From an uncultured Eubacteriales bacterium (GTDB lineage Bacteria; Bacillota; Clostridia; Christensenellales; Aristaeellaceae): a stretch of DNA of 56,541 nt. The stretch is taken from contig CACWLP010000007.1 of the NCBI GenBank assembly GCA_902761755.1, forward strand, positions 1-56,541, read 5' to 3'. Of the stretch, positions 1 to 56,440 are shown piece after piece. A model generated the notes under the pieces. It had not been told where the DNA came from. It saw nothing but the letters and a program-made list of their open reading frames with translations, and did no database searches. The position numbers and the translations under genes are program-made. Position 1 is the stretch's first letter; the number at the start of each line of letters is the position of its first letter.

Positions 1-277
1 TCATTTGCTCCTCGGCGACGTACATGCCGCCGCCTGCGGATGAGAATCGAAGGGGCTGCGGCCCCTTCGATGCATCCCCTTGGTTTTTCGACAAACTGAC
101 GGGGCTGTTGCACAGCCCCTTTGCTGTTTTCTTCCGCTCCGTTCAGCCGGCTCCTCCGGGGCCTTCCGCTTCTCTTCGTCCCGGATGTGGCGTCCATGCC
201 CGGCCAACGGGCTCCGCGCAGGGGAATACACTTGCGTCAGCCAGGCGCCCGGGCCGTGTCCGGAGGCCGGGCTGTGG
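1..277. other. Intergenic stretch at window start, no gene seen
   Basis: Short reading frames here run through hairpins and show no recognisable domain, so no gene is called. The stretch holds the palindromic repeat at 46-119, then about 150 bases of G+C-rich sequence with no clear signal, then the promoter of the polysaccharide operon. Confidence 0.6.
46..119 (+). repeat. Paired palindromes, partial copy of hairpin repeat family H
   Basis: Two hairpins lie close together. The first has 11-base arms at 46-56 and 61-71 around TGCG. The second, GGGGCTGT-TGC-ACAGCCCC, spans 101-119. The second is identical to the hairpin at 56392-56410 and close to one at 29285-29302. The TCGACAAA word between them (88-95) also resembles the sequence after the second hairpin of the other copies. 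It may serve as a terminator for a gene upstream of the window. Confidence 0.7.
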
Positions 278-306
278 TTGACAAAAATGGCCGTCTATGT
301 TATGAT
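278..306 (+). promoter_or_regulatory. Sigma-A promoter of the polysaccharide operon
   Basis: TTGACA at 278-283 and TATGAT at 301-306 are separated by exactly 17 bases. This is a near-consensus housekeeping promoter. Transcription is predicted to start near 313, leaving a leader of about 250 nt before the first gene. I saw no comparable promoter further into the 20-kb block. Confidence 0.85.
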
Positions 307-312
307 TCATCT

Positions 313-332
313 GTATGTCCAGGTGGACATAC
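313..332 (+). promoter_or_regulatory. Perfect palindrome at predicted transcription start
   Basis: An 8-bp perfect inverted repeat, GTATGTCC-AGGT-GGACATAC, begins about 7 bases after the -10 box. It could be a repressor operator or a 5'-terminal RNA stem-loop that protects the transcript or recruits a factor. It has no U-tract, so it is not a terminator. The leader that follows (333-565) has no gene and only weaker potential hairpins, such as GCGGC/GCCGC at 471-490. Confidence 0.6.
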
Positions 333-565
333 GGGCTTTGCTTGCTCTGGGTCTTTACGCTTTTTGAAGCATGAATCCGATGCGGACGGGAAAGGGCGGA
401 ACGCTGCCTGCACACGGCCTGACGACGGGAGCCTGATATCCGGCTGACGCCTGGAAATATCCGGTTCTGCGCGGCTGAATCGGGCGCCGCTTGCAAGGAA
501 AGCACAGGATTCGTCTCTTACGTCCGGCAACGGATCGAAGTACGAAATGCAAAGGGTGAAAAGCC

Positions 566-2563
566 TTGACTGAACAATTGGAAAACCGCGCCAGGAAATG
601 GCATGCGGTATCGCTGCTGTTGGCGGCATATGATGCGTTCGCGGTAGCGGTTTCATATTTTCTGGCGCTGTGGATCCGGTTCGATTGCGAGTTTTCCACC
701 ATTCCGCAGCCCCATCTGTCGGCATATCTCCGTTTCCTGCCGATATACGTCGTTCTTTGCATCGCCATTTTCTGGTGGGCAAAGATGTATAAAACCGTCT
801 GGCGGTTCGCCAGCTATGTGGATCTGACGCGGATCTGCGTGGCTACGGTTGCGGCTTCCCTGATCCATTCGATCCTGATTACGGTGTTCTACTGCGAAGG
901 GCTTCCCCAGCACCGGATGCTCGCGTCCTACTACGTGTTCGGCGCGGTGATCCAGGCGATCCTGCTGATCGTTTCCCGGTTCAGCTACCGGGTCTTCTGC
1001 CTGATCCGCGACAAGCGGAAGGTGGATGATTCTGCGGCCCGGGTGATGATCTTCGGGGCGGGCGCCGCCGGGCAGATGCTGGTGCGGGATATGATGGAAG
1101 CCAAGGAGATCCACGACCGGGCGGTCTGCATGATCGACGATGACAAGAACACCTGGGGCCGGGAGATCGACGGGGTGCCCATCGTGGGCGGCCGGGACGA
1201 AATTCTGCGGGCGGTCAGCGAATACGGCGTATCCAAGATCTATCTGGCGATCCCCAGCGCCACGGCGGAGCAGAAGCGGGATATCCTGAGCATCTGCAAC
1301 GCCACCGGCTGCAAGCTCATGCAGCTGCCGGGGATGTATCAGCTGGTGTCCGGCCAGGTGACGGTGTCCGCCATGAAAAAGGTCTCCATCGAAGACCTGC
1401 TGGGCCGGGAGCCCATCCGGGTGGACCTGCAGGACGTGTTCAGTTTTCTCAACGACAAAACAGTGCTGGTCACCGGCGGCGGCGGCTCCATCGGGTCGGA
1501 GCTGTGCCGGCAGATCGCGGCGCACCATCCCAGGCAGCTGATCATTTTCGATATTTATGAAAACAACGCCTACGATATCCAGCTGGAGCTGAAGGACAAA
1601 TATCCCGAACTGGATCTGGTGGTGCTGATCGGCTCGGTGCGGGACAGCCGGAAGATGTTCAACGTGTTTGAAACCTATCATCCGGACGTGGTGTACCACG
1701 CCGCGGCGCACAAGCACGTGCCCCTGATGGAGACGTCCCCCTGCGAGGCCATCAAGAACAACGCCATCGGCACCTTCAAGACGGCGTACGCCGCCATGGT
1801 GCACGGGTGCAAGCGCTTCGTGCTCATCAGCACGGACAAGGCGGTGAACCCCACCAACATCATGGGGGCCAGCAAGCGGCTGTGCGAAATGATCATCCAG
1901 GCCTTCGACGCCAAGATCAAGGCGGGCAAGGCCAACGAGATCCCGCAGCTGTTCACCCACGAGGGCGTGGAAAACGCCGACAAAGACGGCACGGGCTCCG
2001 TCTTCCGGAATATACAGACCGAGTTTGTAGCGGTCCGTTTCGGAAACGTGCTGGGCAGCAACGGGTCGGTGATCCCCCTGTTCCGCAAACAGATCGAGAA
2101 GGGCGGGCCGGTGACGGTGACCCATCCCGACATCATCCGCTATTTCATGACGATCCCGGAGGCCGTGAGCCTGGTGCTGCTGGCGGGAACTTACGCCAAA
2201 GGCGGCGAGATTTTCGTGCTGGATATGGGCAGCCCGGTGAAGATCGACGCCCTGGCGAGGAACCTGATCCGTTTGTCCGGGTTCAAGCCGGACGTGGACA
2301 TCAAGATCGAATACACGGGGCTGCGGCCCGGGGAGAAGCTGTACGAGGAAAAGCTGATGGCGGAGGAAGGCCTGCAGAAGACCGACAACGACCTGATCCA
2401 CATCGGCAAGCCCATCCCCTTCGACACGGACGTGTTCCTGGGTCAGCTGGAAACGCTGATGAAAAAGGCCTACGCCAACAAGCCGGATATCCGCAGCCAT
2501 GTGGAGAAAATGGTATCCACCTACCACCCGGCAGAGGAAGAACGGAAGGAAAAAACCGCCTGA
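566..2563 (+). CDS. CapD/FlaA1-type nucleotide-sugar 4,6-dehydratase, membrane-bound
   Basis: This 665-residue protein has the architecture of WbpM/CapD/PglF: hydrophobic segments in the first 150 residues, a CoA-binding-like Rossmann segment (GAGAAGQML, about residues 168-176), then an SDR catalytic domain with the nucleotide motif VTGGGGSIGSE near 303. Family members convert UDP-GlcNAc to the 4-keto-6-deoxy sugar, the first step to bacillosamine, QuiNAc or FucNAc. Translation probably starts at a TTG with the purine-rich AAAGGGTGAA just upstream; no in-frame ATG fits as well. It opens the polysaccharide operon, and the SDR at 6573 could act on its keto product. The family is clear; the exact product is not. 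Confidence 0.93.
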   Translation: MTEQLENRARKWHAVSLLLAAYDAFAVAVSYFLALWIRFDCEFSTIPQPHLSAYLRFLPIYVVLCIAIFWWAKMYKTVWRFASYVDLTRICVATVAASLIHSILITVFYCEGLPQHRMLASYYVFGAVIQAILLIVSRFSYRVFCLIRDKRKVDDSAARVMIFGAGAAGQMLVRDMMEAKEIHDRAVCMIDDDKNTWGREIDGVPIVGGRDEILRAVSEYGVSKIYLAIPSATAEQKRDILSICNATGCKLMQLPGMYQLVSGQVTVSAMKKVSIEDLLGREPIRVDLQDVFSFLNDKTVLVTGGGGSIGSELCRQIAAHHPRQLIIFDIYENNAYDIQLELKDKYPELDLVVLIGSVRDSRKMFNVFETYHPDVVYHAAAHKHVPLMETSPCEAIKNNAIGTFKTAYAAMVHGCKRFVLISTDKAVNPTNIMGASKRLCEMIIQAFDAKIKAGKANEIPQLFTHEGVENADKDGTGSVFRNIQTEFVAVRFGNVLGSNGSVIPLFRKQIEKGGPVTVTHPDIIRYFMTIPEAVSLVLLAGTYAKGGEIFVLDMGSPVKIDALARNLIRLSGFKPDVDIKIEYTGLRPGEKLYEEKLMAEEGLQKTDNDLIHIGKPIPFDTDVFLGQLETLMKKAYANKPDIRSHVEKMVSTYHPAEEERKEKTA

Positions 2564-2590
2564 AGGCTTCCTGACGGTCCATTCACAAAA

Positions 2591-2673
2591 GGCGCCCGGC
2601 GCCGTTCATGCCACAGCATGGCGGTGAGAGCGCCGGTCAGAAACGGCGAAATGCCGCGCTGAATGAAGCGCGG
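2591..2673 (+). promoter_or_regulatory. Two GC-rich hairpins upstream of the NusG paralog
   Basis: The 141-base gap before the NusG-like gene contains GGCGC-CCG-GCGCC (2591-2603) and a perfect 7-bp stem CCGCGCT-GAATGA-AGCGCGG (2654-2673). Neither is followed by a U-run. The second stem shares the CCGCGC/GCGCGG frame with the hairpin at 3262-3279. These are candidate RNA sites for the LoaP-like antiterminator. Confidence 0.45.
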
Positions 2674-2704
2674 ACGGCGAAGCCGTATCCCGGAGGCGAA
2701 AAGC

Positions 2705-3235
2705 ATGGAACAATACGTCCGGTGTGCGTTCTGTCTGACGGGCAGTGAGGAAAGCGTGGCCCGGAAGATCGAGAAAAAACGGCTGGGCCGGGTGCTGATC
2801 CCGCGGAAGGTGAAGCCGTTCCGGGTGAACGGACAGTGGGTGGACAGAACGGAGCTGCTGATGCCGGGGTATCTGTTCATATTTTCGGAGGAGAAGTACC
2901 CCTTCAGCGGGCTGAAAGCCGTGGACGGCATCGTCCGGGTGCTGACCTATGGGGACCGGGACGAGGAGGGCTTCCTGACCGGGTGGGACCTGGATTTCGC
3001 CGCCTGGCTGCAAAAAGAAGACGGGCTGATCGGGAAGCTGGACGCGGTTCAGGAGGGCGATTTCGTCCGGATCACGGACGGAGCCCTGCGGGATATGCAG
3101 GGCCGGGCTGTCGGTATGAATCGGCACAGGCACATGGTAAACGTCGAGGTGACGTTTTTCGGAGCCAAGCGGAATGTGTGGCTGGGTTACGAAGTGATCG
3201 AAACGGTTAAGGAAAAACCGCATGCCGAAGGATAG
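2705..3235 (+). CDS. loaP: LoaP-like NusG paralog (transcription antiterminator)
   Basis: This 176-residue protein matches specialised NusG paralogs: an N-terminal NGN domain (EQYVRCAFCLTGSEESVARKI, then LMPGYLFIF near residues 54-62) and a C-terminal KOW domain (VQEGDFVRITDGALRDMQGR, about 114-133). Such proteins (LoaP, UpxY, RfaH) bind RNA polymerase during elongation and suppress termination across long surface-polysaccharide or antibiotic operons. The start at 2705 is chosen because GGAGG sits 8 bases upstream; an in-frame ATG at 2663 lacks a good site. As second gene of a 20-kb operon it probably acts in cis. LoaP is favoured over housekeeping NusG by location and divergent sequence. Confidence 0.85.
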   Translation: MEQYVRCAFCLTGSEESVARKIEKKRLGRVLIPRKVKPFRVNGQWVDRTELLMPGYLFIFSEEKYPFSGLKAVDGIVRVLTYGDRDEEGFLTGWDLDFAAWLQKEDGLIGKLDAVQEGDFVRITDGALRDMQGRAVGMNRHRHMVNVEVTFFGAKRNVWLGYEVIETVKEKPHAEG

Positions 3236-3261
3236 AAAACGAACAATCATTCCATTATGCG

Positions 3262-3279
3262 CCGCGCCCATGGGCGCGG
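3262..3279 (+). promoter_or_regulatory. Perfect 18-bp palindrome between loaP and the HTH-membrane gene
   Basis: CCGCGCC-CATG-GGCGCGG forms a 7-bp G+C stem with a 4-base loop in the 77-base gap after loaP. No U-tract follows, so it is not an intrinsic terminator. Its stem resembles the one at 2654-2673. It could bind a protein as DNA (the next gene has an HTH domain) or act as an RNA element for LoaP. Confidence 0.5.
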
Positions 3280-3312
3280 AATTCAATCGGGAAGACCAAA
3301 GGAGACGGAAAA

Positions 3313-5682
3313 ATGACCTCATTGGGAAATCAGATCCAGGAAGCGCGCAAAAAAGCGAATATGACCCAGGCGCAGCTGGCAGACGCGATGGGCGTCAGCC
3401 GGGAAGAGATCGCCGCCTGGGAAAAGGACGAGCAGGTGCCGTCAAAGAAGCTGCTGCAGAAAATGGGCGACCAGTTCGGCACGGTGTTCTTCGATCCCGG
3501 ATCTGTGGAGGCGCAGCGAAAGTCCGATGAAAAGCTGGAAAAGGTGAAGGCGGCGGAATTCCAGGGAAAAACGGGCGGCCTGTTCGGCGGGAATGCCGCT
3601 GAGGGAAGCGGCGGAAATTCCAAAATGTGGCTGATCCCGCTGGCGCTGGCGCTGGTATTGGCGCTGGCCGTATATCTGATGCTCCAGCCGAAGATCGACG
3701 AGCTGACCAACCAGGTAGGCGTGCTGAAGCAGTCTCTCTCGGCGACATCAAAAGATGCCGATGAATTCCGGGATCAGATGAAAACGGATGTCGGCACGAT
3801 GAACGGGCAGATCGATGCCCTGCAGCAAGCGGCGGAAGCATCCGGGAACAGCCTGGGCGATCTGGAAAAAATCGTGTCCGGTACCATCGATTATTCAGAA
3901 AAGAACCTGATGGATGGCGCGGAGTGGACAGAAGGATACTACATCAGAATCAGCGACGGCGGCGAGGCCGTCAATGATACCTGGTCGGTGGCCGGCTACC
4001 AGGAAGTGATGCCGAACAAGACGTATACCATCAAAATGAAGGGAAGAGTGCTGGGCTGCATTTATTCCGACACCAATTCTTCCTCCTTTACAACGACGCT
4101 GAAGCCCGCTTCCTCCCTGAGAACCTATACGTTCACAACGGGCCCGCAGGACAAGTATATCAGGCTGTCCTGCCCCACGGACGAGATTTCGGGCCTCGGG
4201 CTGTATGCCAATCCGGAAATCAAAGGAAACGTTTCGATCCCATCGCTGCAGAGCATGGAAAACAACATGGTCGAAGGAAAGCATACGGTCGTTCTTGAAA
4301 ACAACTATGCTTCTGTGCTGCCCGATCTGGACAAAGTTTCCGTAAACTCGATTTTCATACTGAATTTCTCCGCCGATCAGGAAAAGCCGAAGAATCTTCC
4401 CGATCCGACGATCGCCTACAATATGGCGACGCTGATGACGTTCGGCCGGGGGAACGGCCAGCCGTACCGCGTCCAGTATCTGTTCGACCGATTCCATATC
4501 TGGGCGCGCGTTTACGGAAACTCCTGGGATAAATGGTATGAGATCGTCAACAATACAGGGCTGGTTTACGCCGATAACTTTGAAACCGCGCTGCCCGATC
4601 TGGATCTGGCCCCGCTCGGAAGCCATTTTGTGCTGAAGTTTGACGCCGCGGACAAGAAACCGCTGAACATGCCGGACGAAACCGCCAAGTACGATTCCGC
4701 GATCCTGATCACGGTCGGGGACCAGTATAAAGCCCAGCTGATGATTGATGGCCAGTTTATCTACAAGCGGGAATTTGCCGATTCCTGGAGCGAATGGAAG
4801 AAGCTGGATTCTTTCGGCGGCAGCCAGACCGTTCACGCGACCCCGGAAAACCTGATCGGCATTCTCAGGGAGTATGAGAATACCGGGGCGACGGTGGTGC
4901 TCGCCAGCGGCACCTACGACGTGTATGAGATGTATAAGGCGTATTTCGGCAGCGACTGCTGGGACAATTACGCCGCTTTCGCCCGGAAAGAAGAAAAAAT
5001 GTCCAAGGGGCTGTGGGTGAGCGATCTGCGCCTGGTCGGCAGCGGGAACACGGTGTTCACCTTTACCGGAAATCTGAAGGGCAAAGCGAAGGAGCAGTTC
5101 TCCCTCTTCCTCCCCGCCGGAAGCGGAGCGACCCTGGAAAGCCTTGCGATCGACTGCGGCGACGGGGCCGTCCGGTGCGCCGTCTGGGACGAATACGCCG
5201 ATGCGGACGCCCATGTCACCTTGGACAGGCTGACCGTCAGCGGCACGCCTTCCGGGGACGCCCTGATCGGCGGCAAGCTTGGGCAGGGCTGCGTCTATAC
5301 CATTGAAAACTGCGTATTCACGGGGAACGGCGGGGCGTATGATATCGTTTACCGCGCCGGCGCTTCCGGCGGGAATCCGTCCCGCGTATGGATCACAAAC
5401 TGCTTTGGAGAAAAAGCCGTGGGCTTTTTCGGCAGCGGCGCCGGGACGGAGGCGCACAAGTGCATCGTCAACAATTCGTCCTTCCCGCAGATCACGGCCG
5501 AAGGCGGATCCGCGCAGAATGCGGAAGCGACGGATATAGCGCTGATCAAGTATCTGTGCAGCGAAACGCCTGCCGAGGAGGAAACCCCTGAAATCACGGA
5601 GCCTTCTGAGGAGCCTGCCGCGCAGAAAACCATGGTTCAGCGGGACAGAGGCACCGGACACAACGGAACAGAAGCACACTAA
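3313..5682 (+). CDS. HTH-transmembrane protein with phage-knob-like repeats and beta-helix
   Basis: This 789-residue protein has an order I do not recognise as a named family. Residues 5-60 are an XRE-type helix-turn-helix (MTQAQLADAMGVSREEIAAW). Residues about 105-124 form one membrane segment, and 128-185 look coiled-coil. Residues 194-310 resemble a carbohydrate-binding beta-sandwich. Two tandem modules follow at about 319-414 and 417-498, each with ALPDLD/VLPDLD and ending in SW-x2-W, like pyocin-knob domains of phage tail proteins. A right-handed beta-helix region (about 500-745) and a Glu/Pro-rich tail close it. The topology recalls RodZ: DNA-binding-like domain inside, large domain outside. 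The operon context suggests a surface-polymer sensor, anchor or modifier. Domain calls are by eye. Confidence 0.75.
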   Translation: MTSLGNQIQEARKKANMTQAQLADAMGVSREEIAAWEKDEQVPSKKLLQKMGDQFGTVFFDPGSVEAQRKSDEKLEKVKAAEFQGKTGGLFGGNAAEGSGGNSKMWLIPLALALVLALAVYLMLQPKIDELTNQVGVLKQSLSATSKDADEFRDQMKTDVGTMNGQIDALQQAAEASGNSLGDLEKIVSGTIDYSEKNLMDGAEWTEGYYIRISDGGEAVNDTWSVAGYQEVMPNKTYTIKMKGRVLGCIYSDTNSSSFTTTLKPASSLRTYTFTTGPQDKYIRLSCPTDEISGLGLYANPEIKGNVSIPSLQSMENNMVEGKHTVVLENNYASVLPDLDKVSVNSIFILNFSADQEKPKNLPDPTIAYNMATLMTFGRGNGQPYRVQYLFDRFHIWARVYGNSWDKWYEIVNNTGLVYADNFETALPDLDLAPLGSHFVLKFDAADKKPLNMPDETAKYDSAILITVGDQYKAQLMIDGQFIYKREFADSWSEWKKLDSFGGSQTVHATPENLIGILREYENTGATVVLASGTYDVYEMYKAYFGSDCWDNYAAFARKEEKMSKGLWVSDLRLVGSGNTVFTFTGNLKGKAKEQFSLFLPAGSGATLESLAIDCGDGAVRCAVWDEYADADAHVTLDRLTVSGTPSGDALIGGKLGQGCVYTIENCVFTGNGGAYDIVYRAGASGGNPSRVWITNCFGEKAVGFFGSGAGTEAHKCIVNNSSFPQITAEGGSAQNAEATDIALIKYLCSETPAEEETPEITEPSEEPAAQKTMVQRDRGTGHNGTEAH

Positions 5683-5697
5683 GCTTGGAGTGAAAAA

Positions 5698-6576
5698 ATG
5701 CCGACATTTCTGATTGTTCTGGGCGGCGTTATCCTGCTGATGGCGCTGGCGGCTGCATGCACGAAGCCCGCCAGCGTTTATCGGCATCAGCCCGCCGAAA
5801 GGAATCCGCTGGAGGGAAAGACCGTCAGGTTCGTTGCGGATGAAAGCGAGCCGGAAAATGCCGACGGCGTGCGGGGCCATCTGGAGGCCACCGGCACCGC
5901 GGACCGGAAAAGGAGCTTCTACGACCGCGTATGCAAGCGCCTCCTGGATATAATCCTCTCTTTCCTGGGCCTCGTGCTGCTCAGCCCGGTTTTTCTGGCC
6001 CTGTCCCTGTGGATCGTGATCGACGATCCCGGCCCGGTGCTGTTCACGCAGAAGCGCATCGGGAAAAACAAGCAGTTTTTCAGGCTCCACAAATTCCGTT
6101 CCATGAAAATGTCCACGCCCCACGATAAGCCGACCCATATGCTGGAAAATCCCGACCAGTACATCACCAGAGCGGGAAAATTCATCCGCGCCCACTCCCT
6201 GGATGAGCTGCCGCAGATTTGGGATATTTTCATTGGGAACATGAGCGTGATCGGGCCCCGTCCCGGGCTGTGGAACCAGGATCTGCTGACGGCCGAGCGG
6301 GACAGATGGGGGGCCAACGACATCCGGCCCGGCCTCACCGGCTGGGCGCAGATCAACGGCCGGGACGAATTGGAGATTCCGGACAAGGCAAAGCTGGACG
6401 GAGAATACCGCGAAAAGGAATCCTTCGCCTTTGACTGCCGTTGCTTCATCGGCACGGTTTTTTCCGTCGCCCGGGGCGAAGGCGTCGTTGAAGGCGGGAC
6501 CGGGGCGATGGCAGCCAAAGCGCAAAACGGCGACGGCGCCGGGGACGGCGAGCCGGAACAGCAGAGGAAAGCATGA
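5698..6576 (+). CDS. Initiating sugar-1-phosphate transferase (PglC/WecA-like HPT family)
   Basis: This 292-residue protein carries the bacterial sugar transferase domain (PF02397 type). The amphipathic or re-entrant membrane segment KRLLDIILSFLGLVLLSPVF lies near residue 79. After it come DDPGPVLFTQKRIG, FRLHKFRSMK, SLDELPQIWDI and RPGLTGWAQINGRDE. It transfers a sugar phosphate from a UDP sugar to undecaprenyl phosphate, starting the repeat unit. An extra N-terminal hydrophobic segment (1-20) and a linker precede the catalytic domain, and a Gly/Ala-rich tail follows, making it longer than the minimal 200-residue PglC. It starts 15 bases after the upstream gene with GGAG upstream and overlaps the next gene by ATGA. 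Confidence 0.92.
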   Translation: MPTFLIVLGGVILLMALAAACTKPASVYRHQPAERNPLEGKTVRFVADESEPENADGVRGHLEATGTADRKRSFYDRVCKRLLDIILSFLGLVLLSPVFLALSLWIVIDDPGPVLFTQKRIGKNKQFFRLHKFRSMKMSTPHDKPTHMLENPDQYITRAGKFIRAHSLDELPQIWDIFIGNMSVIGPRPGLWNQDLLTAERDRWGANDIRPGLTGWAQINGRDELEIPDKAKLDGEYREKESFAFDCRCFIGTVFSVARGEGVVEGGTGAMAAKAQNGDGAGDGEPEQQRKA

Positions 6577-7460: not shown

Positions 7461-8485
7461 GCGGTATGGCGGCGAAAGAACCGGCGCTGGCGGGAAAGCG
7501 GATCCTGCTGATTGCCCTGCCCGGATATCCCAAGGGCATGATCAGGCAGATGCAGGCCCTGGGCGCGGAGGTCGATTATATCAACGACAAGCCCAACGAC
7601 GGTTTTCTGTGCAAGACCCTGGGCCGGCTCCAGCTGAGCTTTTATCAAAAGGTGATCGACCGGTATTACGGGGAAAAAATCGACGCCCTCCGGCAGAACC
7701 GCTATGACTATATCCTGGTGATCCGCGGCGAATATACTACCAAAGGCGCTCTCCTGCGCCTGCAGGAGGCATTCCCGTCCGCCAAACGGATCCTGTATAT
7801 GTGGGACGGCCTGCATAAGCAGAATACCCGCGGGATCGAAGAAAAATGGAAATACTATGATAAAGTATTCACCTTTGACCGGATCGACTACGAGGCGAAC
7901 CGGGATCAGCTTCATTTTCTGCCGCTGTTCTATTATGAGGAATATCTTCCCCGGGACTGCCGGGAGCCCAATGCGCCGGACTTTCCTTTGGACGTCAGCT
8001 TCATCGGCACGGGGCATGCGGACCGGGTGAAGATCGTGAAGGCGGTCATGGCGCAATGCCGGGAGAACGGGCTGAAAACCTTTGATTACGTGTTCATGCC
8101 CCATCCCCTGGTGTTCTGGCGGAACAAGCTGACCAACCGGGACTTCAAAGGCGTCACTGCCGGGGACGTGCATTATAAAATGCTCCCGTTTGATAAGCTG
8201 TATCAGACCTATGCCGATTCCAGATGCGTTGTAGACGTGGAAAACCCGGGGCAGCACGGGCTGACCATGCGCACCATAGAGATCGTCGGCCTGAAGAGGA
8301 AGTTCATCACCACCAACCGGGATATCGTCCATTATGATTTCTATCATCCGGATAATATCCTCGTGCTGGACCGGGAAAACCCGACGGTGGACATGGAATT
8401 TTTCAAAAAGCCCTATGTGATGCTGCCGCCGGAGATATACGAAAAGTATTCCCTGAGAAGCTGGATCCTTGCGGTGCTGGGCTGA
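7457..8485 (+). CDS. Putative glycosyltransferase (CgeB/GT-B-like)
   Basis: This 342-residue protein starts with a Rossmann-like strand (ILLIALPGYP) and contains ILYMWDGLH, SFIGTGHADR and a C-terminal ENPGQHGLTMRTIEIVGLKRKFITTN segment, resembling the nucleotide-sugar pocket of CgeB-like or Eps GT-B transferases. It probably adds one sugar of the repeat unit on the cytoplasmic face. The donor cannot be read from sequence. It overlaps the preceding SDR gene by four bases. Confidence 0.7.
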   Translation: MSGMAAKEPALAGKRILLIALPGYPKGMIRQMQALGAEVDYINDKPNDGFLCKTLGRLQLSFYQKVIDRYYGEKIDALRQNRYDYILVIRGEYTTKGALLRLQEAFPSAKRILYMWDGLHKQNTRGIEEKWKYYDKVFTFDRIDYEANRDQLHFLPLFYYEEYLPRDCREPNAPDFPLDVSFIGTGHADRVKIVKAVMAQCRENGLKTFDYVFMPHPLVFWRNKLTNRDFKGVTAGDVHYKMLPFDKLYQTYADSRCVVDVENPGQHGLTMRTIEIVGLKRKFITTNRDIVHYDFYHPDNILVLDRENPTVDMEFFKKPYVMLPPEIYEKYSLRSWILAVLG

Positions 8486-8518
8486 AGAGCCGCCGGAGGA
8501 TCCCGGGAGGTTTGAGAT

Positions 8519-9076
8519 ATGGATCTGCGGAAACTGGTCTGGGCGGCGCGGGGCGTGGTTTACAAGCTCTTTTTCGGAAAGGTCGGCAATCTTTCCTACA
8601 TCGGAAAGCCCGTTTCCCTCGTCGGAGCAAAAAACATCCAAATCGGCAGCCGGGTCAGGATTTACCCGGGCGCGAGAATGGAAGCCCACGGCGATGCGAA
8701 GATCATCGTTGAGGACAATTGCTCCATCGCGCAGAATTTATATATGACGGTTGACGGCGAACCCCTGGTGATCGGGAAAAACACCACGATCAGCGCCAAC
8801 GTGTTCATTACCAATCTGGACCACGAATACCGGGATATTGATAAGCACATCATGGAACAGCCGCACATGATCCGAACTACCCGGATCGGAGAGGGATGCT
8901 TTATCGGTTTCGGAGCGGCCATTCAGGCGGGAACGATCCTTGGCAAGCACTGCGTGGTCGGCACCAACGCGGTGGTCCGCGGGGAGTTCCCGGATTACTG
9001 CGTGCTTGTGGGCGTGCCGGCCAGGGTCGTCAGGAAATACAACCCGGAAACCGGCGAATGGGAAAGGACGAAATGA
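8519..9076 (+). CDS. Hexapeptide-repeat O-acetyltransferase
   Basis: This 185-residue protein has left-handed beta-helix hexapeptide repeats (IGSRVRI, VEDNCSI, IGKNTTISANVF, IGEGCFIGFGAAIQAG, LGKHCVVGTNAVV) and ends with the family signature VGVPARVVR. The catalytic His is probably in NLDHEY. Such WbbJ/maltose-acetyltransferase-type enzymes acetylate sugars from acetyl-CoA, here most likely a repeat-unit sugar. A GGGAGG site precedes the ATG. Confidence 0.92.
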   Translation: MDLRKLVWAARGVVYKLFFGKVGNLSYIGKPVSLVGAKNIQIGSRVRIYPGARMEAHGDAKIIVEDNCSIAQNLYMTVDGEPLVIGKNTTISANVFITNLDHEYRDIDKHIMEQPHMIRTTRIGEGCFIGFGAAIQAGTILGKHCVVGTNAVVRGEFPDYCVLVGVPARVVRKYNPETGEWERTK

Positions 9077-9122: not shown

Positions 9123-10424
9123 ATGCTGAATTCGGTCAAAGCAAAAAACATCATATACGCCGTAGTCACAGTGCTGCTGGTGGCGTTTTCCTACGTTCAC
9201 GTGATTTTTACGGATCTGCTGGCGGTCTGGCTGCTGGTGTTCTCGATCATCAAGATCGCGAAAACGAAGAACAACATGCTGCTGCTGCTTCAGCTGTTCA
9301 TGCTGATTTACTCCGTTGTGCCGATCCTGTATTTTATCCTGAATATCCCCATTTCTCCCCATCAGTATCTGGATCTGAACCAGAAGGCGAACATGCGCCT
9401 GGCGCTGCAGACCCAGACCGTATTCGTCGTGGCGTTCCTGAGCTGGGCGCCCATCGAGAGCAGATATACCTTTGCCGGCGTGTTCCGGCCGCAGAAGCGG
9501 CACATGGCCTGGCTGGTTTCCGTACTGATCATGATCGGGAGTCTTTTTTTTGTGAACTGGCGCGGCGTTCTCTCCTCCATGCTGAAGACGTACAGCATCG
9601 AAACGGAAAGCAGCATCATATTCGACTATTTCATGGTTTTCACTGCGGCCAATTATTTCTTCTGCGACGCGAAGGTGAAGCGGGCGGTCAATATTTTCCT
9701 GGCCGTGATGGTTTCCCTGATCTGCGTCCTGATCGGGAAGCGGCTGACGGCGGTTTCGCTGCTGCTGCTGGTGTATATCCTGCATTATGACGGGAAACTG
9801 AAAAAAAGGACGATCATCCTGGGCTTTATCGCGGGCACCATGCTGTTCAACGCGATTCAGTTCACGAGGATCAATCAGATGCCCAGCCTGTTCAACGTAT
9901 TGACGGGCATCAATATCGAAAACGGCGTTTTCAGGAGCAATTCCTGTGATATCTGGTACGCTTCCGAGGTAATTGTCAAGCTGATTTCCGAAAAGGTGTT
10001 TGACTGGGGCTTCCGCCTCAAGAGCTTCCTGGGCACCTTCCTCAACGCGTTTCTTCCCTCCAGCCTGACGCCCAAGGAGGCGCTGGTAAACGTCTACATC
10101 ACGGAGAACAACCTGTTCCCCTACACCGCCAACGGAAGCCTGATCGGCGTTTCCACGTATCTGTGGCTGAGCTATCCCGGCGTGCTGCTGTTCGCTTATC
10201 TGATCTCCCTGCTGATCAGGAAGGGCATGAGCAGCCGCGGGAAACTGAGCACCCTTTACACCGTGCTGATCCTGGCCACCTTCCCCCGGTGGTACACCTA
10301 TAATCCCCGGATCCTGTTCAAATTCGCTTTTGTGGCCGGGGTGGTCTATCTGTGCGTATGGATCGTCGCCTCCTCGGAAGTAACGAAGAATCGGGTAAGG
10401 AAGCGGACGAATGAAAAAAAATAA
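9123..10424 (+). CDS. Wzy-type oligosaccharide repeat-unit polymerase
   Basis: This 433-residue integral membrane protein is hydrophobic nearly throughout, with around ten predicted membrane segments and a larger extracytoplasmic loop in the second half (about residues 265-350). Sequence identity within Wzy polymerases is low, so the call rests on topology, size and position directly before the flippase. It would polymerise undecaprenyl-linked repeat units outside the membrane. AAGGAGA precedes the ATG, and its end overlaps the flippase gene by 14 bases. Confidence 0.75.
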   Translation: MLNSVKAKNIIYAVVTVLLVAFSYVHVIFTDLLAVWLLVFSIIKIAKTKNNMLLLLQLFMLIYSVVPILYFILNIPISPHQYLDLNQKANMRLALQTQTVFVVAFLSWAPIESRYTFAGVFRPQKRHMAWLVSVLIMIGSLFFVNWRGVLSSMLKTYSIETESSIIFDYFMVFTAANYFFCDAKVKRAVNIFLAVMVSLICVLIGKRLTAVSLLLLVYILHYDGKLKKRTIILGFIAGTMLFNAIQFTRINQMPSLFNVLTGINIENGVFRSNSCDIWYASEVIVKLISEKVFDWGFRLKSFLGTFLNAFLPSSLTPKEALVNVYITENNLFPYTANGSLIGVSTYLWLSYPGVLLFAYLISLLIRKGMSSRGKLSTLYTVLILATFPRWYTYNPRILFKFAFVAGVVYLCVWIVASSEVTKNRVRKRTNEKK

Positions 10425-11955
10425 AACCATTGTCGTCCTGATGCTGATCGCCGGCCTGTCAAAGCTGGTGGGTTTTTCCAGAGAGATCATCCTGTCTTAT
10501 TTCTGGGGCGCGACCAACATCAGCGACGCTTACCTGATTTCCACCACGATCCCCACCACGATCTTTACGTTCGTCGGCGTCGGCATAACCACGGGCTTCA
10601 TCCCGATCTATACGGAGATCAAGGAAAAGGAAGGCCGGCTGCAGTCCAATGCGTTTGTGAACAAGCTGCTGGTTTCCACCCTGCTGATCTGCTGCGGGCT
10701 GATCGCGGTGGGTGAGCTGTTTTGCGGTCCGCTGGTGCGGATATTCGCCAGCGGCTTCGACCAGGAGACGTATCGGATCGCGGTGACCTTTACCCGCGTG
10801 AGCCTGTTTGAAATCGGCTTTACCACGATCATGTACATCATGACCGCGTATCTGCAGAGCGAGGATTCGTTCATTGCGCCGGCGCTGGCTTCTTTCCCCA
10901 TGAACCTGATGACCATCGGGGCGATCTGGCTGAGCTCCAACGGGAATTATTATTTCCTGTGTATCGGCTGCCTGGCCGCCAGCTTTGCCCAGGCCGCGTT
11001 CCTGGTGCCGTTTGCTTTCCGGAAGGGATTCCGGATCACGCGGATTGCCAACCCCCGCGGTGACAGCAAGATCAAGGAGCTTTTCGCTCTGGCGCTGCCC
11101 ACCATCATCGGCACGTCCGTCAACGATATCAACGTGCTGGTGGACAGGACCCTGGCTTCCAATCTGTCCGTGGGCGGCATTTCCGCGCTGAATTACGCCA
11201 GCAAGATCAACGCGTTTCTGCAGGGCATCATCGTGCTTTCGATCGTTTCCTATATCTATCCCAAGATCGCGAAGTTCGCCGTCAATCAGGATTCCGGCAA
11301 GCTGAAAAACGTCATCGACAGCGCCTTGGTATCCATCGTTTTCATTCTGCTTCCGGCCAGTTGCGTTCTGATCATTTTTGCGGAAAAGATCGTTTCCCTG
11401 ATATTCGGCCACGGCGCCTTCGACCGGGATGCGGTGCTGATGACCTCGTCCGTATTGGCTTTCTACAGCATCGGGATGATTGCAAACGGCCTGCGGGAGG
11501 TATTCTCCCGGGTGCTGTTCGCGTATAAGGATTCAAAAACGCCGATGATCAACGGCGCCATCGGCATGGTGATCAACATTGTGCTGAACCTGGTGCTCAG
11601 TTCCTTCATGGGAATCGACGGCCTGGCGCTGAGCACGTCGGTATCCAGCTTCTGCATCCTGGTGATGCTGATGTACGGCATCGCCAGGAAAAAGATCTGG
11701 AAGCCGGGCAGAACGCTGTACGTTTCGCTGGCCAAGATCGCGGCGCTGTCCGCGGTCATGTGCTGCTGCGTCCTGCTGGGCAAGCGCGCGGCGTCCATGC
11801 TGATCGGCAATGAATATGTTTCCATCGCCTTGTCCGTGCTGCTCGGCGGCATCGTGTATCTTCTGGGCGCCTTCCTTCTGGATATCAGGGAGATCACGTC
11901 CATGCTGCGGTTTACGAAAAAGGATCGGGAAGAGGAAGAGGCCCCCCATGAGTGA
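10411..11955 (+). CDS. MurJ/MviN-family lipid-linked oligosaccharide flippase
   Basis: This 514-residue membrane protein shows the MurJ/MviN signature: an N-terminal SKLVGFSREIILSYFWGA, a dozen or more hydrophobic segments and an internal VDRTLAS segment. In this operon the likely substrate is the undecaprenyl-linked repeat unit rather than lipid II, taking the place of Wzx. It overlaps the polymerase upstream and ends within the start of the next gene. Confidence 0.9.
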   Translation: MKKNKTIVVLMLIAGLSKLVGFSREIILSYFWGATNISDAYLISTTIPTTIFTFVGVGITTGFIPIYTEIKEKEGRLQSNAFVNKLLVSTLLICCGLIAVGELFCGPLVRIFASGFDQETYRIAVTFTRVSLFEIGFTTIMYIMTAYLQSEDSFIAPALASFPMNLMTIGAIWLSSNGNYYFLCIGCLAASFAQAAFLVPFAFRKGFRITRIANPRGDSKIKELFALALPTIIGTSVNDINVLVDRTLASNLSVGGISALNYASKINAFLQGIIVLSIVSYIYPKIAKFAVNQDSGKLKNVIDSALVSIVFILLPASCVLIIFAEKIVSLIFGHGAFDRDAVLMTSSVLAFYSIGMIANGLREVFSRVLFAYKDSKTPMINGAIGMVINIVLNLVLSSFMGIDGLALSTSVSSFCILVMLMYGIARKKIWKPGRTLYVSLAKIAALSAVMCCCVLLGKRAASMLIGNEYVSIALSVLLGGIVYLLGAFLLDIREITSMLRFTKKDREEEEAPHE

Positions 11956-13249
11956 AAAGAGCATCGATAGCGTTCATCAGGAATATCTGTCCGCCTTCCG
12001 GCAGGTCCGCATGCCCGGCCTGGAAGAATTTGAAACGGATAAGCTGCTGTTTAACCAATCGTACCACGCGCTGACCAGGAAATGGAAATTCCTGCTGGGC
12101 ACCGTGGTCGCCGCCCTGTTTTTCGACCGCGAAACGATCCGCTATGACGACCGGGAGGCCGGCTTGCTTCTGTATTCGGAAGTGTTCAACCGGAAGGATC
12201 ACGACACGTATTGGCAGCTCCTGTGCGATCTGTTTCCGGACAAAAACACCATGACGATCGTCAACCTGTCCAAGAGCGAGATGAAGCGCTGCCTGCGCCT
12301 GGGGCAGATACCGGGAAAGCTGAAAAGGCTGGCGCAATACAATAAACGGCTGAAATTCGTGCGGTCTCGCCTGCAGCGGGCTTTCTTATCGGCGCAGCTG
12401 ATCTGGCTGTATCAGTTCCTGAAGAAAATTGAAAAGCTGCAGCTCCACCCCAAGGCGGCGATGTGCTTCTGCGACGCGGACTTTCACGAAACGCTGCTGG
12501 TCCAATGGCTGAATCACCGCGGGGTGGCCACCGTGACGAATCAGCACGGCCAGCCCCTGCTGCGGGACAAAAATACCGACAGGCTGAACCAAAGCCAGGT
12601 GCTGAATTTCAACAGCCGGTATTTCCTGGCCAAAGGGAGCTTCACCCGGGAGCAGTTCCGCAAAGCGGGCGTTTCCGACGACCGGGTGATCGTGGTGGGC
12701 GATCTGAAACACGAAAAACCGGCCGTCGCCATCCATGAAAAGAAAAACAGATTCTGCGTGTTCCTGGATACGCCCAGCTACGGCTTCGCGGAAAAAACCA
12801 ACGCCGAGCTGCTGCGCTTTGCGGAAGCGGTCGGCGGCGCCCTGCACATGGATTATTATGTGAAGCTGCATCCCAGCGACGATTCGGGCAGATATTCGGG
12901 CGTGTCGCCCGACCGGTTCCTGGACAGGAACATCAGCCTGTCCGAATGCTTCGGAATGATCGATTTCGGCCTGTTCAGCGCCAGCGCCATTTATATCGAC
13001 ATGATCGCGTTTGGCGTAAAGGCCTATCAGTACTGCGGCATCCCCTTCCCGATCACCTCGTCGGAGGACGATCGGGTCGCTTCGCTGGAGGACTTCACGG
13101 AAAAGCACCGCCGGTGGGAGGCAAAAAACGACGGGGAAAAACGGGCGTATTTCGCGGAGCTGTACGGCCGGTACTATTCGGATAAAAATGCGGCGGATGA
13201 AATTCGCATGTTTGTCGGTCATCTGCTGACGGATGGAGGAGAACAATGA
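11948..13249 (+). CDS. Putative GT-B glycosyltransferase, candidate ulosonic-acid transferase
   Basis: This 433-residue soluble protein has no membrane segment. Features include VTNQHGQ near residue 200, NSRYFLAKGSFTREQF and VIVVGDLKHEK. The C-terminal half carries YYVKLHPSDDSGRY and SASAIYIDMIAFG, resembling the donor half of capsular GT-B enzymes such as polysialyl- or Kdo-transferase-like proteins. Its position immediately before the CMP-sugar synthetase, with ATGA overlap, suggests it uses the CMP-ulosonic acid made by the next four genes. That is inference. The ATG at 11948 is chosen over an upstream in-frame ATG lying inside the flippase gene. Confidence 0.6.
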   Translation: MSEKSIDSVHQEYLSAFRQVRMPGLEEFETDKLLFNQSYHALTRKWKFLLGTVVAALFFDRETIRYDDREAGLLLYSEVFNRKDHDTYWQLLCDLFPDKNTMTIVNLSKSEMKRCLRLGQIPGKLKRLAQYNKRLKFVRSRLQRAFLSAQLIWLYQFLKKIEKLQLHPKAAMCFCDADFHETLLVQWLNHRGVATVTNQHGQPLLRDKNTDRLNQSQVLNFNSRYFLAKGSFTREQFRKAGVSDDRVIVVGDLKHEKPAVAIHEKKNRFCVFLDTPSYGFAEKTNAELLRFAEAVGGALHMDYYVKLHPSDDSGRYSGVSPDRFLDRNISLSECFGMIDFGLFSASAIYIDMIAFGVKAYQYCGIPFPITSSEDDRVASLEDFTEKHRRWEAKNDGEKRAYFAELYGRYYSDKNAADEIRMFVGHLLTDGGEQ

Positions 13250-13899
13250 AAGCAGTGGCGTTTATTCCCATCAAGCTCAATTCCCAGCGGCTGCCCCACA
13301 AAAACATCCTTCCCATTGCCGGGCATCCCCTGTGCTGGCACCTGTGCAATACGCTGAACCAGGTCCGGGGCCTGGACAGCGTGTACGTGTACTGCTCCGA
13401 TCCCGCGGTGAAGCAGTATATCCCGGAGGAAACCCGCTTCCTCCAGCGGCCGGAATGGCTGGACGGAAACCTGGTAAAGGGCTTTGACATTTACCGCTCG
13501 TTCATCCAGGCGGTGGACGCCGACGTGTACGTTCTGGCCCATACCACTTCGCCCTTTATCAAAGTGTCCTCCTGCCAGACCGCACTGGACCACGTCCTTT
13601 CCGGGGAATACGATTCGGCGTTCTCCGCCGAACGGATCCAGACCTTCGCCTGGTACCAGGGAAAGCCCATCAACTACGACCTCAACGATGTTCCCCGGAC
13701 GCAGGATATGGAGCCGATCTGGGTGGAAACCAGCGCGTTCTTCATGTTCAAAAAGGAAATCTTCACCGTCCACAACAGAAGGATCGGCTTCCATCCCTAC
13801 ATCCAGGAAGTATCCGGCATTGAAGCGGTGGACATTGACGAGAAAAAGGATTATGACCTGGCATGTATGCTGGCGGAAGCAGAAAGGATCGGACAATGA
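13246..13899 (+). CDS. Acylneuraminate/ulosonate cytidylyltransferase (CMP-sugar synthetase)
   Basis: This 217-residue protein belongs to the NeuA/PseF/KdsB superfamily. The N-terminal CTP-binding loop reads [15 protein letters not shown], close to the NeuA pattern and unlike the classical KdsB IPARxxSxRLPGKPL. Other motifs are [17 protein letters not shown] and a C-terminal [11 protein letters not shown] metal-binding region. It activates a nine- or eight-carbon acid sugar with CTP. Since the next three genes make Kdo, CMP-Kdo is the most likely product despite the NeuA-like sequence. GGAGGAG precedes the ATG. Confidence 0.87.
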
Positions 13900-14672
13900 G
13901 CAAAATGACGTTGATCGCCGGGCCCTGCGTGATCGAATCCGAGCAGAATGTGATGCTGGTGGCGGAAACGGTGGCGGGGATCGCCCGGAAGCTGGATCTG
14001 GATTATTATTTCAAGGCGTCCTTCGATAAGGCCAACCGGACCAGCATTTCCTCCTATCGCGGCCCCGGGATCGAAAAAGGGCTGGAAATCCTGCAGAAGG
14101 TGAAGGACACGCTGGGCCTGAAAATCTGCACGGACATCCACGAGCCGTGGCAGGCGGAAAAGGCGGCGCAGGTGGCGGACATTCTTCAGATCCCCGCTTT
14201 CCTCTGCCGGCAGACGGATCTGCTGGTGGCGGCGGCGAAGACGCAAAAGTGCATCAATGTGAAAAAGGCCCAGTTCCTGGCGCCCTGGGATATGAAAAAT
14301 GTGGTCACCAAGCTGGAGGAATCCGGGAACAGGAACATTATGCTGTGCGAGCGGGGCTCCACCTTCGGCTACAACACCCTGGTGGTGGATATGACGGGGA
14401 TCTTTGAAATGAAGAAATTCGGCTATCCGGTGGTGTTCGACGCCACCCACAGCGTGCAGAAGCCGGGCGGGAAAGGCAGCGCCACCGGCGGCAACCGGGC
14501 ATACGTGGAGCCGCTGGCAAAGGCGGCCGTGGCGGCGGGCGCGGACGCGCTTTTCTTTGAAGTCCACCCCGATCCGGACCGCGCGCTTTCCGATGGGCCC
14601 AATATGGTCCGGCTGGACGAATTTGAAAGCCTTCTGAGCCGGGTGATGAAGGTATACGACGCAGTGCATTGA
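13896..14672 (+). CDS. kdsA: 3-deoxy-8-phosphooctulonate (Kdo-8-P) synthase, metal-dependent class
   Basis: This 258-residue protein has strong KdsA signatures: [48 protein letters not shown] and [12 protein letters not shown]. It condenses arabinose-5-phosphate with PEP to Kdo-8-P. Cys11 in GPCVIE, the His of DATH, and Glu/Asp in [14 protein letters not shown] match the ligands of the metallo-KdsA class; the E. coli non-metallo class has Asn in place of the Cys. The start at 13896 gives the family-typical N-terminus and overlaps the upstream stop by four bases. Confidence 0.95.
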
Positions 14673-14685
14673 CGGGGGAATCGGT

Positions 14686-15648
14686 ATGGACAGATTGGCT
14701 GAGGGCAAGCGCGTTTTTGACAAGGAGATCGACGCGCTGATCAAAACGCGCGACGCGCTGGGAGATACTTACCTGCAGATCCTGGAGCTGGTCACCAAAT
14801 GCGAAGGCAAGGTGATCGTGACCGGGATGGGCAAGCCCGGGCATATCGCGGCAAAAATCGCGGCGACCTTTGCCAGCCTCGGCACGCCGGCGTTCCACCT
14901 GCATCCGGCGGAAGCCATGCACGGGGATCTGGGCATGGTGTCCGCCAATGATGTGGTCATTGCGATCAGCTTCAGCGGCGAGAGCGAAGAGATCATCCGC
15001 ATCCTTCCCAACATCAAAATGATCGGCGCCAGGCTGGTGGGCATCACGGGCAACCCGGATTCCATCCTTGCCCAGGAAGCCGACGTTGTGCAGATCCTGC
15101 CCAAGTTTGAGGAGGCGTGCTTCCTCGGCCTCGCCCCCACCTCCAGCACCACGGCCGCGCTGTGCTACGGGGATTCCCTGGCCGTGGTGGCCAGCGCCGT
15201 CTACGGCTTCAAGGACAGCGACTTCGGCAAATTCCATCCGGCGGGCAGCCTGGGCAAAAAGCTGATTCTTCGGGTGGAGGACATCATGGCCCAGGGGGAG
15301 AAAAACGCGAAGGTGCACGTCAGCGTACCCCTCAAGGACGCCATCATTGAGCTAAGCAAAAAAGGCCTCGGCGCCCTGTCCGTGGTGGACGACGACGACA
15401 ATCTTCTGGGGATCATCACAGACGGGGATCTGCGGCGCCAGCTGGAAAAAGGGGTGGACATCTACAGCCTGAAGGTGGAAAACATCATGTCCACCGATCC
15501 GTACACGATCCGGAAAGAAAGGCTGGCCATCGAGGCGCTGAAGGTGATGAAGCACAGGAACATTTCCTGCCTGCTCGTCACGGAAGGCACGAAAGCCATC
15601 GGAACCATCCGGCTTCAGGACATCATAGGGGTGGGGATCATTGGATAA
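14686..15648 (+). CDS. kdsD: Arabinose-5-phosphate isomerase (KdsD/KpsF)
   Basis: This 320-residue protein has a SIS sugar-isomerase domain (about 30-165: VIVTGMGKPGHIAAKIAATF, HLHPAEAMHGDLGM, ISFSGESEE) followed by two CBS domains (about 205-320). It interconverts ribulose-5-phosphate and arabinose-5-phosphate, supplying KdsA. Length and domain order match full-length KdsD/KpsF/GutQ. It starts 13 bases after kdsA with GGGGG upstream. Confidence 0.95.
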   Translation: MDRLAEGKRVFDKEIDALIKTRDALGDTYLQILELVTKCEGKVIVTGMGKPGHIAAKIAATFASLGTPAFHLHPAEAMHGDLGMVSANDVVIAISFSGESEEIIRILPNIKMIGARLVGITGNPDSILAQEADVVQILPKFEEACFLGLAPTSSTTAALCYGDSLAVVASAVYGFKDSDFGKFHPAGSLGKKLILRVEDIMAQGEKNAKVHVSVPLKDAIIELSKKGLGALSVVDDDDNLLGIITDGDLRRQLEKGVDIYSLKVENIMSTDPYTIRKERLAIEALKVMKHRNISCLLVTEGTKAIGTIRLQDIIGVGIIG

Positions 15649-16114
15649 GACGAAGTACCTGATCATGGATGTGGACGGGACGCTTACGGACGGGAAGATC
15701 TATATGTCGCCGTCCGGCGAAGCGATGAAGGCGTTCAGCATCAAGGACGGCTGCGGGATCCACGATCTCCTGCCCGGCGCGGGAATCGTGCCGGTGATCA
15801 TCACCGCGAGAAAATCGGAAATCGTGGTCAACCGCTGCAGGGAGCTGGGGATCAGCGAGGTCTATCAGGGCGTCGGCAGCAAGATCGGCCAGATGCGCTC
15901 CGTCGTTGCCGATCTTGCCCAGGCCGCATACATCGGAGACGACATCAACGATCTGCAGTGCATGCAGGCGGTCCGGGAAGCCGGCGGGCTGGTGGGCTGC
16001 CCTGCCGACGCGGTGCGGCAGGTGATGGAGATTGCCGATTTTGTGGCGGCGCACAGGGGCGGCGACGGGGCCGTCAGGGATTTTATTGAGTGGATCCTTC
16101 AACAAAAGCGATAG
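15641..16114 (+). CDS. kdsC: Kdo-8-phosphate phosphatase (KdsC-like HAD hydrolase)
   Basis: This 157-residue protein is a capless C0-type HAD phosphatase: motif [10 protein letters not shown] near residue 10, ITARKS (motif II), a Lys in VGSKIGQM and [10 protein letters not shown] (motif IV). KdsC releases phosphate from Kdo-8-P, giving free Kdo. The likely start is a TTG overlapping the kdsD stop by eight bases; the next ATG (15665) would delete the strand before motif I. The normal KdsC length is 160-190 residues, so this is compact but complete. Confidence 0.9.
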
Positions 16115-37709: not shown

Positions 37710-37775
37710 GGGGGAGGGGTGCTCTTTGGGGCCAAAGAGCACCCCTCCCCCGTACCCCCACCCTGAGAAAGCGGG
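37710..37775 (+). repeat. Palindrome repeat family P, copy 1
   Basis: Perfect 20-base arms at 37710-37729 and 37732-37751 meet at a tip CTTTGG-GG-CCAAAG. They are followed by a conserved flank GTACCCCCACCCTGAGAAAG. The near-identical copy 2 is at 39601-39666. Copies 3 and 4 are in the opposite orientation with different arm sequences but a related flank. Confidence 0.85.
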
Positions 37776-56387: not shown

Positions 56388-56440
56388 CGAAGGGGCTGTT
56401 GCACAGCCCCTTCGATCAAATGGATCCTCCATTTGATCGA
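56388..56440 (+). repeat. Double-hairpin repeat of family H, downstream of the deacetylase
   Basis: A 12-bp stem (56388-56399 with 56403-56414, loop TGC) abuts a second 12-bp stem (56412-56423 with 56429-56440, loop ATCCT). The order matches the minus-strand copy after gpsA (29302-29254). A short CAAAAA follows rather than a T-run, so it is not a classical terminator. Confidence 0.85.

Follow-up and report, generated by a model that had tools for sequence, protein, structure and literature searches.

A bacterial polysaccharide operon encodes an XRE-type helix-turn-helix, a membrane span and a phage-fibre-type ectodomain in one protein

The stretch of DNA analysed here (the window) comprises 56,541 nucleotides of contig CACWLP010000007.1 from an uncultured Eubacteriales bacterium (assembly GCA_902761755.1). 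Its open reading frame (ORF) 3313-5682 encodes a protein in which an XRE-type helix-turn-helix (HTH), a membrane span, a coiled coil and a phage-fibre-type ectodomain are combined in one chain. The ORF and the module order given in a first-pass annotation (HTH, span, coil, sandwich, two repeats, beta-helix) were recovered, and its remark that no named family has this order agrees with our searches, as the combination was absent from every family library scanned and from every other genome piece examined. Tentatively, we propose that the protein acts as a one-component receptor in the membrane, recognising surface polysaccharide of its own cell or of a neighbour, and that it regulates its own operon. 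The modules are as follows.

3313-5682, + strand: ORF encoding the 789-amino-acid (aa) protein, ATG start, as first annotated
3313..3492, + strand: XRE-type HTH, residues 1-60, presumably cytoplasmic (Pfam, solved chains, structure model, Foldseek)
3622..3684, + strand: single membrane span, residues 104-124 (hydropathy, structure model)
3685..3879, + strand: coiled coil, residues 125-189 (heptad score, structure model)
3880..4230, + strand: beta-sandwich module, present in phage fibres and also in certain secreted proteins of hosts, residues 190-306 (tblastn, profile, structure model)
4264..4548, + strand: knob-like module 1, residues 318-412 (repeat comparison; putative fold)
4549..4812, + strand: knob-like module 2, residues 413-500 (repeat comparison; putative fold)
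4819..5547, + strand: right-handed beta-helix, residues 503-745, with Y622, H625, G655 and H681 replaced by C, W, K and R
5548..5682, + strand: acidic tail, probably disordered, and stop, residues 746-789 (predicted local distance difference test score, pLDDT, <50 at 749-765 and 769-789)

The HTH is well supported, as residues 8-56 match Pfam HTH_3 (E 2.6e-12, 47 bits vs a curated cut-off of 23), solved XRE-type chains including P22 C2 and the ICEBs1 regulator are among the matches, and four helices are modelled in this region. At the HTH, Foldseek returned 8tac and 9k3w at probability 1.00, yet with E 0.17-0.24. The single span coincides with a hydropathy peak (best mean 2.56 at residues 106-124), the 12 best windows all beginning at residues 100-111. 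The heptad score of the coil (125-190) was matched by 2 of 5000 shuffles, and the model places one helix across residues 107-176, so both membrane span and coiled-coil stretch stand as first described. An N-in/C-out topology would put the HTH inside and the fibre outside.

The ectodomain is, judged by sequence, homologous to phage receptor-binding fibre modules. Its beta-helix blocks (511-730) were modelled at pLDDT 74-96 with a pectate-lyase-like right-handed beta-helix fold, and tblastn found a relative in a Butyrivibrio phage protein (E 1e-5) encoded directly before the endolysin, which together bear out the beta-helix of the first-pass annotation. Foldseek, run with the full model only, matched this fold mostly to polysaccharide lyases, hydrolases, epimerases and tailspike depolymerases; in one of these searches the rows span residues 461-789 and hardly touch the other parts. 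Nine distinct viral proteins were read from profile-search matches in viral contigs. One (L069) carries three knob-like repeats followed by the beta-helix in a single chain, at least three (L070, L071, L081) carry sandwich modules followed by the beta-helix, likewise in a single chain, and the others have different N-terminal parts. These joint occurrences support the phage-like character of the ectodomain. By eye, L071 lies downstream of tail-like genes with a lysozyme-like gene next. The Butyrivibrio virus Arian protein (L050), L069, L070, L071 and L081 thus share a beta-helix family with the window protein; unlike it, these receptor-binding-type proteins have phage-type N-termini and keep Y622, H625, G655 and H681. 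No HTH was seen when the starts of the viral relatives were read by eye, and the bacterial beta-helix relatives examined, L067 (Lentisphaeria, yak rumen), L068 (Clostridia, goat rectum) and L090, carry none either, the 5' end of L090 being cut in the piece read. The nearest genes to ORF 3313-5682 are polysaccharide genes or unmatched and not a phage tail locus, on which ground an ordinary prophage gene was rejected.

In tblastn, the sandwich (~190-306) matched tail fibres of Proteus and Klebsiella (best E 5e-5), and strands were modelled at residues 205-288 (block pLDDT 53-82). A beta-sandwich thus lies where a carbohydrate-binding-like module had been proposed; the carbohydrate-binding label itself goes back to CBM4-2, which Foldseek matched weakly (E 0.055). 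The module was found at 14 places in 11 other genomes of the class; when these ORFs were read by eye, four were cut at the 5' end and the other ten had no N-terminal HTH. In at least three cases (L104, L105, L109) the protein resembles one secreted by a host, having by eye a signal-like start, the sandwich and a C-terminal SGNH esterase-like stretch, and the phage fibres P0004 and P0006 share the sandwich and esterase-like layout (Pfam GDSL lipase models). Because secreted host proteins carry it too, the sandwich is not confined to phages, and the phage-to-host direction of transfer is one that we infer; the ectodomain likely moved from phage to host.

Residues 318-500 form a tandem repeat (local score 159 vs 24.7 +/- 4.4 in 500 shuffles; 36% identical) and align to the three L069 repeats at 22% identity. 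They were unmatched in Pfam and NCBIfam and among the 25 of 40 PHROGs matches listed, and the region was modelled poorly (block pLDDT 27-61 in the full model, mean 39 when folded alone). The two tandem modules first reported are thus upheld as repeats with a putative knob fold; "pyocin knob" is a presumptive label that neither library scans nor model confirmed.

The beta-helix of the window protein departs from its family at positions that are otherwise fixed. In an alignment with 13 relatives (identities to the window protein 14-25%), the relatives all agree at seven columns, of which the window protein retains R621, D626 and G653 and breaks the other four (Y622C, H625W, G655K, H681R). When each relative was left out in turn, none broke more than one of the 7-8 such columns. 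The H625 block is clean in every row, and the H681 block is gapped or ambiguous in L068, L069, L072 and L086. The DNA patterns used for searching spanned Y622-H625-D626 but permitted C and W, H681 and G655 lay in no pattern, and L050 and L090 were recovered without patterns. On a plain reading of these substitutions, the ancestral use of the beta-helix, catalysis or a fixed sugar contact, would no longer be under the same constraint. Since conserved family residues are altered, the beta-helix is taken here as a putative binder and not an enzyme. The proposal of a phage-derived module for polymer binding or trimming accordingly keeps its phage-like ectodomain, and its trimming part is weakened.

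Relatives of the whole arrangement are scarce. A sample of 299 other genomes from the family contained no ectodomain relative at E <= 1e-5, and none was found in viral contigs searched with window-only patterns. Against genome contigs, the P0001 patterns gave nine pattern matches of which none was confirmed, the window's own or near-identical records possibly being excluded. The ectodomain matched 12 records of the phage collection (best E 4e-5, most far weaker) and one plasmid record (E 5); the knobs alone matched nothing in the phage collection. Against viral contigs, no match was confirmed for a two-row beta-helix alignment, the Butyrivibrio phage beta-helix or a two-row knob alignment. The two-row beta-helix profile matched none of 296 other genomes of the order and six of 390 others of the class at E <= 0.01; an eight-row profile also matched six of the 390, at E <= 0.001, and of its matches L089/L061, L090 and L091 were inspected and L092-L094 left out. 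Escherichia coli genomes gave no match. Searches of titles and abstract openings found no description of the HTH-span-fibre architecture, and a literature search on WcaM gave no result.

The gene lies within a polysaccharide operon, as first proposed, whose relevant features are these.

278..306, + strand: promoter-like site TTGACA-17-TATGAT with extended -10 (11/12), upstream of capD
313..332, + strand: perfect 9+9 dyad GTATGTCCA-GG-TGGACATAC, candidate operator or 5' RNA hairpin/leader terminator
566..2563, + strand: CapD-like nucleotide-sugar dehydratase/epimerase (PF02719, E 2.1e-115), first gene of the presumed operon
2663..3235, + strand: LoaP-like NusG paralogue (NF033641, 77.6 bits, below the curated cut-off of 125)
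5698..6576, + strand: initiating sugar transferase (Bac_transf; PF02397, E 6.6e-55), the next gene

From capD the order is loaP-like gene, ORF 3313-5682, initiating sugar transferase, epimerase and WaaS/CpsH glycosyltransferase, followed by a hexapeptide acetyltransferase-like gene, a gene that occupies the polymerase position and has no Pfam match, a MurJ-type flippase and an unmatched gene, with 3-deoxy-D-manno-octulosonic acid (Kdo) and dTDP-sugar genes in the distal part. The adjacent NusG paralogue is LoaP-like, as had been noted, and falls short of LoaP identity by its NF033641 score. No Wzz-like or kinase family was found among the proteins scanned. The flippase, at 10411-11955, is of the MurJ family, whereas a polysaccharide flippase in this place would usually be of the Wzx type. 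At 13246-16114 the cluster contains genes for a Kdo route (models for KdsA and for KdsC-type and KpsF-type proteins score above cut-off, and there is a cytidylyltransferase-like gene), in a genome that probably belongs to the Clostridia.

LoaP-like genes occur in 15 of 29 genomes of the genus and orthologues of the sugar transferase in five of the 29, its own genome included in both counts. For all 18 other loaP-like matches, which are spread over 14 genomes, the surrounding DNA was compared, several contigs being short. Locus ORFs of >=60 aa were set against six segments of the protein, a comparison that a very different HTH would escape. No similar gene was present at any of the 18 loci; the HTH segment alone was matched, by ORFs of 155 and 139 aa (L039, L048), and tblastn gave one HTH match and otherwise nothing better than E 0.9. 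The idea that such a gene always sits beside loaP and capD therefore failed, capD having been viewed only where it is near loaP, and the loaP slot was rejected as a general home of similar genes. Nor was a similar gene found upstream of the three other sugar-transferase orthologues with readable DNA; the contig of the fourth ends ~460 nt upstream. Genome G264 keeps the capD-loaP-transferase-epimerase order with a short aminotransferase-like ORF (by eye) in the slot, and the slot in G196 has no forward ORF >=120 aa. Within the sampled genomes, ORF 3313-5682 appears to have been inserted in this lineage only. Two further features were seen by eye: in G212 (L032 ~7600-8600) the loaP-like gene is separated from a downstream aminotransferase-like gene by ~1 kb that lacks clear ORFs and has the look of degenerate direct repeats, and in G264 (L040 4430-4700) the leader upstream of capD has an apparent decayed second loaP copy.

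XRE repressors commonly sit on dyads of the kind found in front of capD. The exact dyad starts 7 nt beyond the promoter match, occurs once in the draft genome (the next site needs two mismatches) and was in none of the other loci examined; among Markov 45-mers of similar composition, the fraction that contains such a dyad is 0.0004, calculated post hoc. One promoter-like site was found in 1-6000, and since shuffles give a mean of 1.9, the argument for it is site quality and position, not count. We suggest that the HTH may bind dyad 313-332. With the HTH in the cytoplasm and the fibre outside the cell, the coil would multimerise the protein and the fibre would bind the operon's polymer; either this binding or the polymer load would then shift HTH seating on the candidate dyad. 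As the dyad overlaps the expected transcription start, the operon, ORF 3313-5682 included, would be tuned by its own product. We consider unlikely a more specific version, in which a captured phage receptor-binding fibre gave up the active or binding site of its ancestor, became joined to an XRE switch and a membrane anchor, and now reads the cell's own capsule to set capsule transcription.

Several observations weigh against a receptor that regulates its operon. The window holds 26 overlapping entries of perfect 9+9 dyads, many of them terminator-like by eye; 310-335 itself scores terminator-like (one of 10 such sites, against an expectation of 6.7) and the dyad folds as an RNA hairpin with an AGGU loop. 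The HTH has a net charge of -1 and a third-helix region, SREEIAAWEKDE, that is not obviously basic. With a loaP-like gene already present, the operon does not need a second regulator. Gapped rows make the H681 column less secure than that of H625, and the protein comes from one genome only. Because the dyad scores terminator-like, our already limited confidence was lowered slightly. The earlier suggestion of sensing outside and signalling to DNA inside thus gains indirect support from a promoter-proximal dyad, and the same element's terminator-like score counts against it. The dyad is possibly a leader terminator on which the LoaP-like protein acts; it was rejected as LoaP's known RNA element, as its loop is AGGU and the LoaP hairpins described in PMC12691694 carry UNCG. 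A second perfect palindrome lies at 3262-3279, between loaP and ORF 3313-5682. Elsewhere, near-identical terminator- or REP-like (repetitive extragenic palindromic) palindromes recur at 101, 29257, 37720, 39611, 56390 and 56415, with GGGGCTGTTGCACAGCCCC at 101 and within 56390-56412 and TGCTCTTTGGGGCCAAAGAGCA at 37720 and 39611.

Somewhat unlikely, in our view, is an anchored fibre, in which a phage-type binder has been domesticated and would tether the nascent or finished polymer or another surface to the membrane, its HTH serving protein contacts inside the cell and not DNA; the HTH, however, matches XRE repressors, no RodZ model came up, and the promoter-proximal dyad would have to be a coincidence or a leader hairpin. 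It is doubtful that the protein is a polymer-modifying enzyme whose beta-helix, in the manner of WceF or RbmB, sets chain length by cutting or editing the polysaccharide of the operon, the HTH being regulatory or vestigial. The fold matches fit such an enzyme, and there are parallels in WceF, a tailspike-like enzyme encoded in an exopolysaccharide (EPS) cluster (PMC7949094), and RbmB, which cleaves VPS (Vibrio polysaccharide; PMC11637428). Yet residues invariant in the 13 relatives, two histidines included, are replaced in the window protein alone, which argues against an unchanged beta-helix activity, although another active site is possible.

Receptor masking, in which a captured phage receptor-binding domain would occupy the cell's phage receptor and block adsorption, suits an ectodomain that is phage receptor-binding-like and is encoded with the genes of the likely receptor; it gives the HTH no role, though, and PADLOC matches are confined to the HTH part of the protein, so that we hold it to be improbable. 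An artefact or non-functional fusion, by misassembly or recent chance recombination, seems to us no more probable than masking. The protein is a singleton in a draft genome that is 73% complete, and GC content varies along the gene, from 0.51-0.53 in the sandwich and knobs to 0.62 in the beta-helix. Against this stand 789 open codons, a good start site with AGGAGA upstream of the ATG, close spacing to the next gene, and a third-position GC (GC3) of 0.61-0.81 across the segments vs 0.74-0.84 in seven neighbour genes.

Among known systems, RodZ has an HTH inside, one span and a beta domain outside, and its HTH fold serves protein contacts inside, not DNA. RodZ is defined by HTH_25 and DUF4115, neither of which was among 15 Pfam matches up to E 1, and a RodZ homologue was rejected; of the RodZ-like character first suggested, the probable topology is retained and the family is not. 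Membrane one-component regulators of the ToxR/CadC type, in which an ectodomain senses and an N-terminal winged-helix DNA-binding domain regulates, follow the logic proposed here with a winged helix in place of the XRE domain. WceF, from the stewartan cluster of Pantoea stewartii, is as here a tailspike-like parallel beta-helix protein in an EPS cluster; it differs in being a Tat-exported (twin-arginine translocation) trimeric hydrolase, for which the available text mentions neither HTH nor membrane anchor (PMC7949094). RbmB of Vibrio cholerae, described as a secreted lyase (PMC11637428), resembles the window protein in fold match only. The Foldseek match to the WceF-related 6tgf was weak (E 0.30).

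Each half of the protein thus has precedent, in membrane DNA-binding receptors and in the phage-like beta-helix of WceF, and their joining in one chain is new within the libraries, genomes and literature searched. To our knowledge, how bacteria measure their own exported polysaccharide is poorly understood. A polysaccharide-type binder and a DNA-binding-type domain in one chain, encoded among the genes for the polymer, would make polymer sensing testable in a single protein. If the proposal is true, a phage attachment module would have been turned into a host signalling input, going beyond host reuse as an enzyme, for which WceF is the example.
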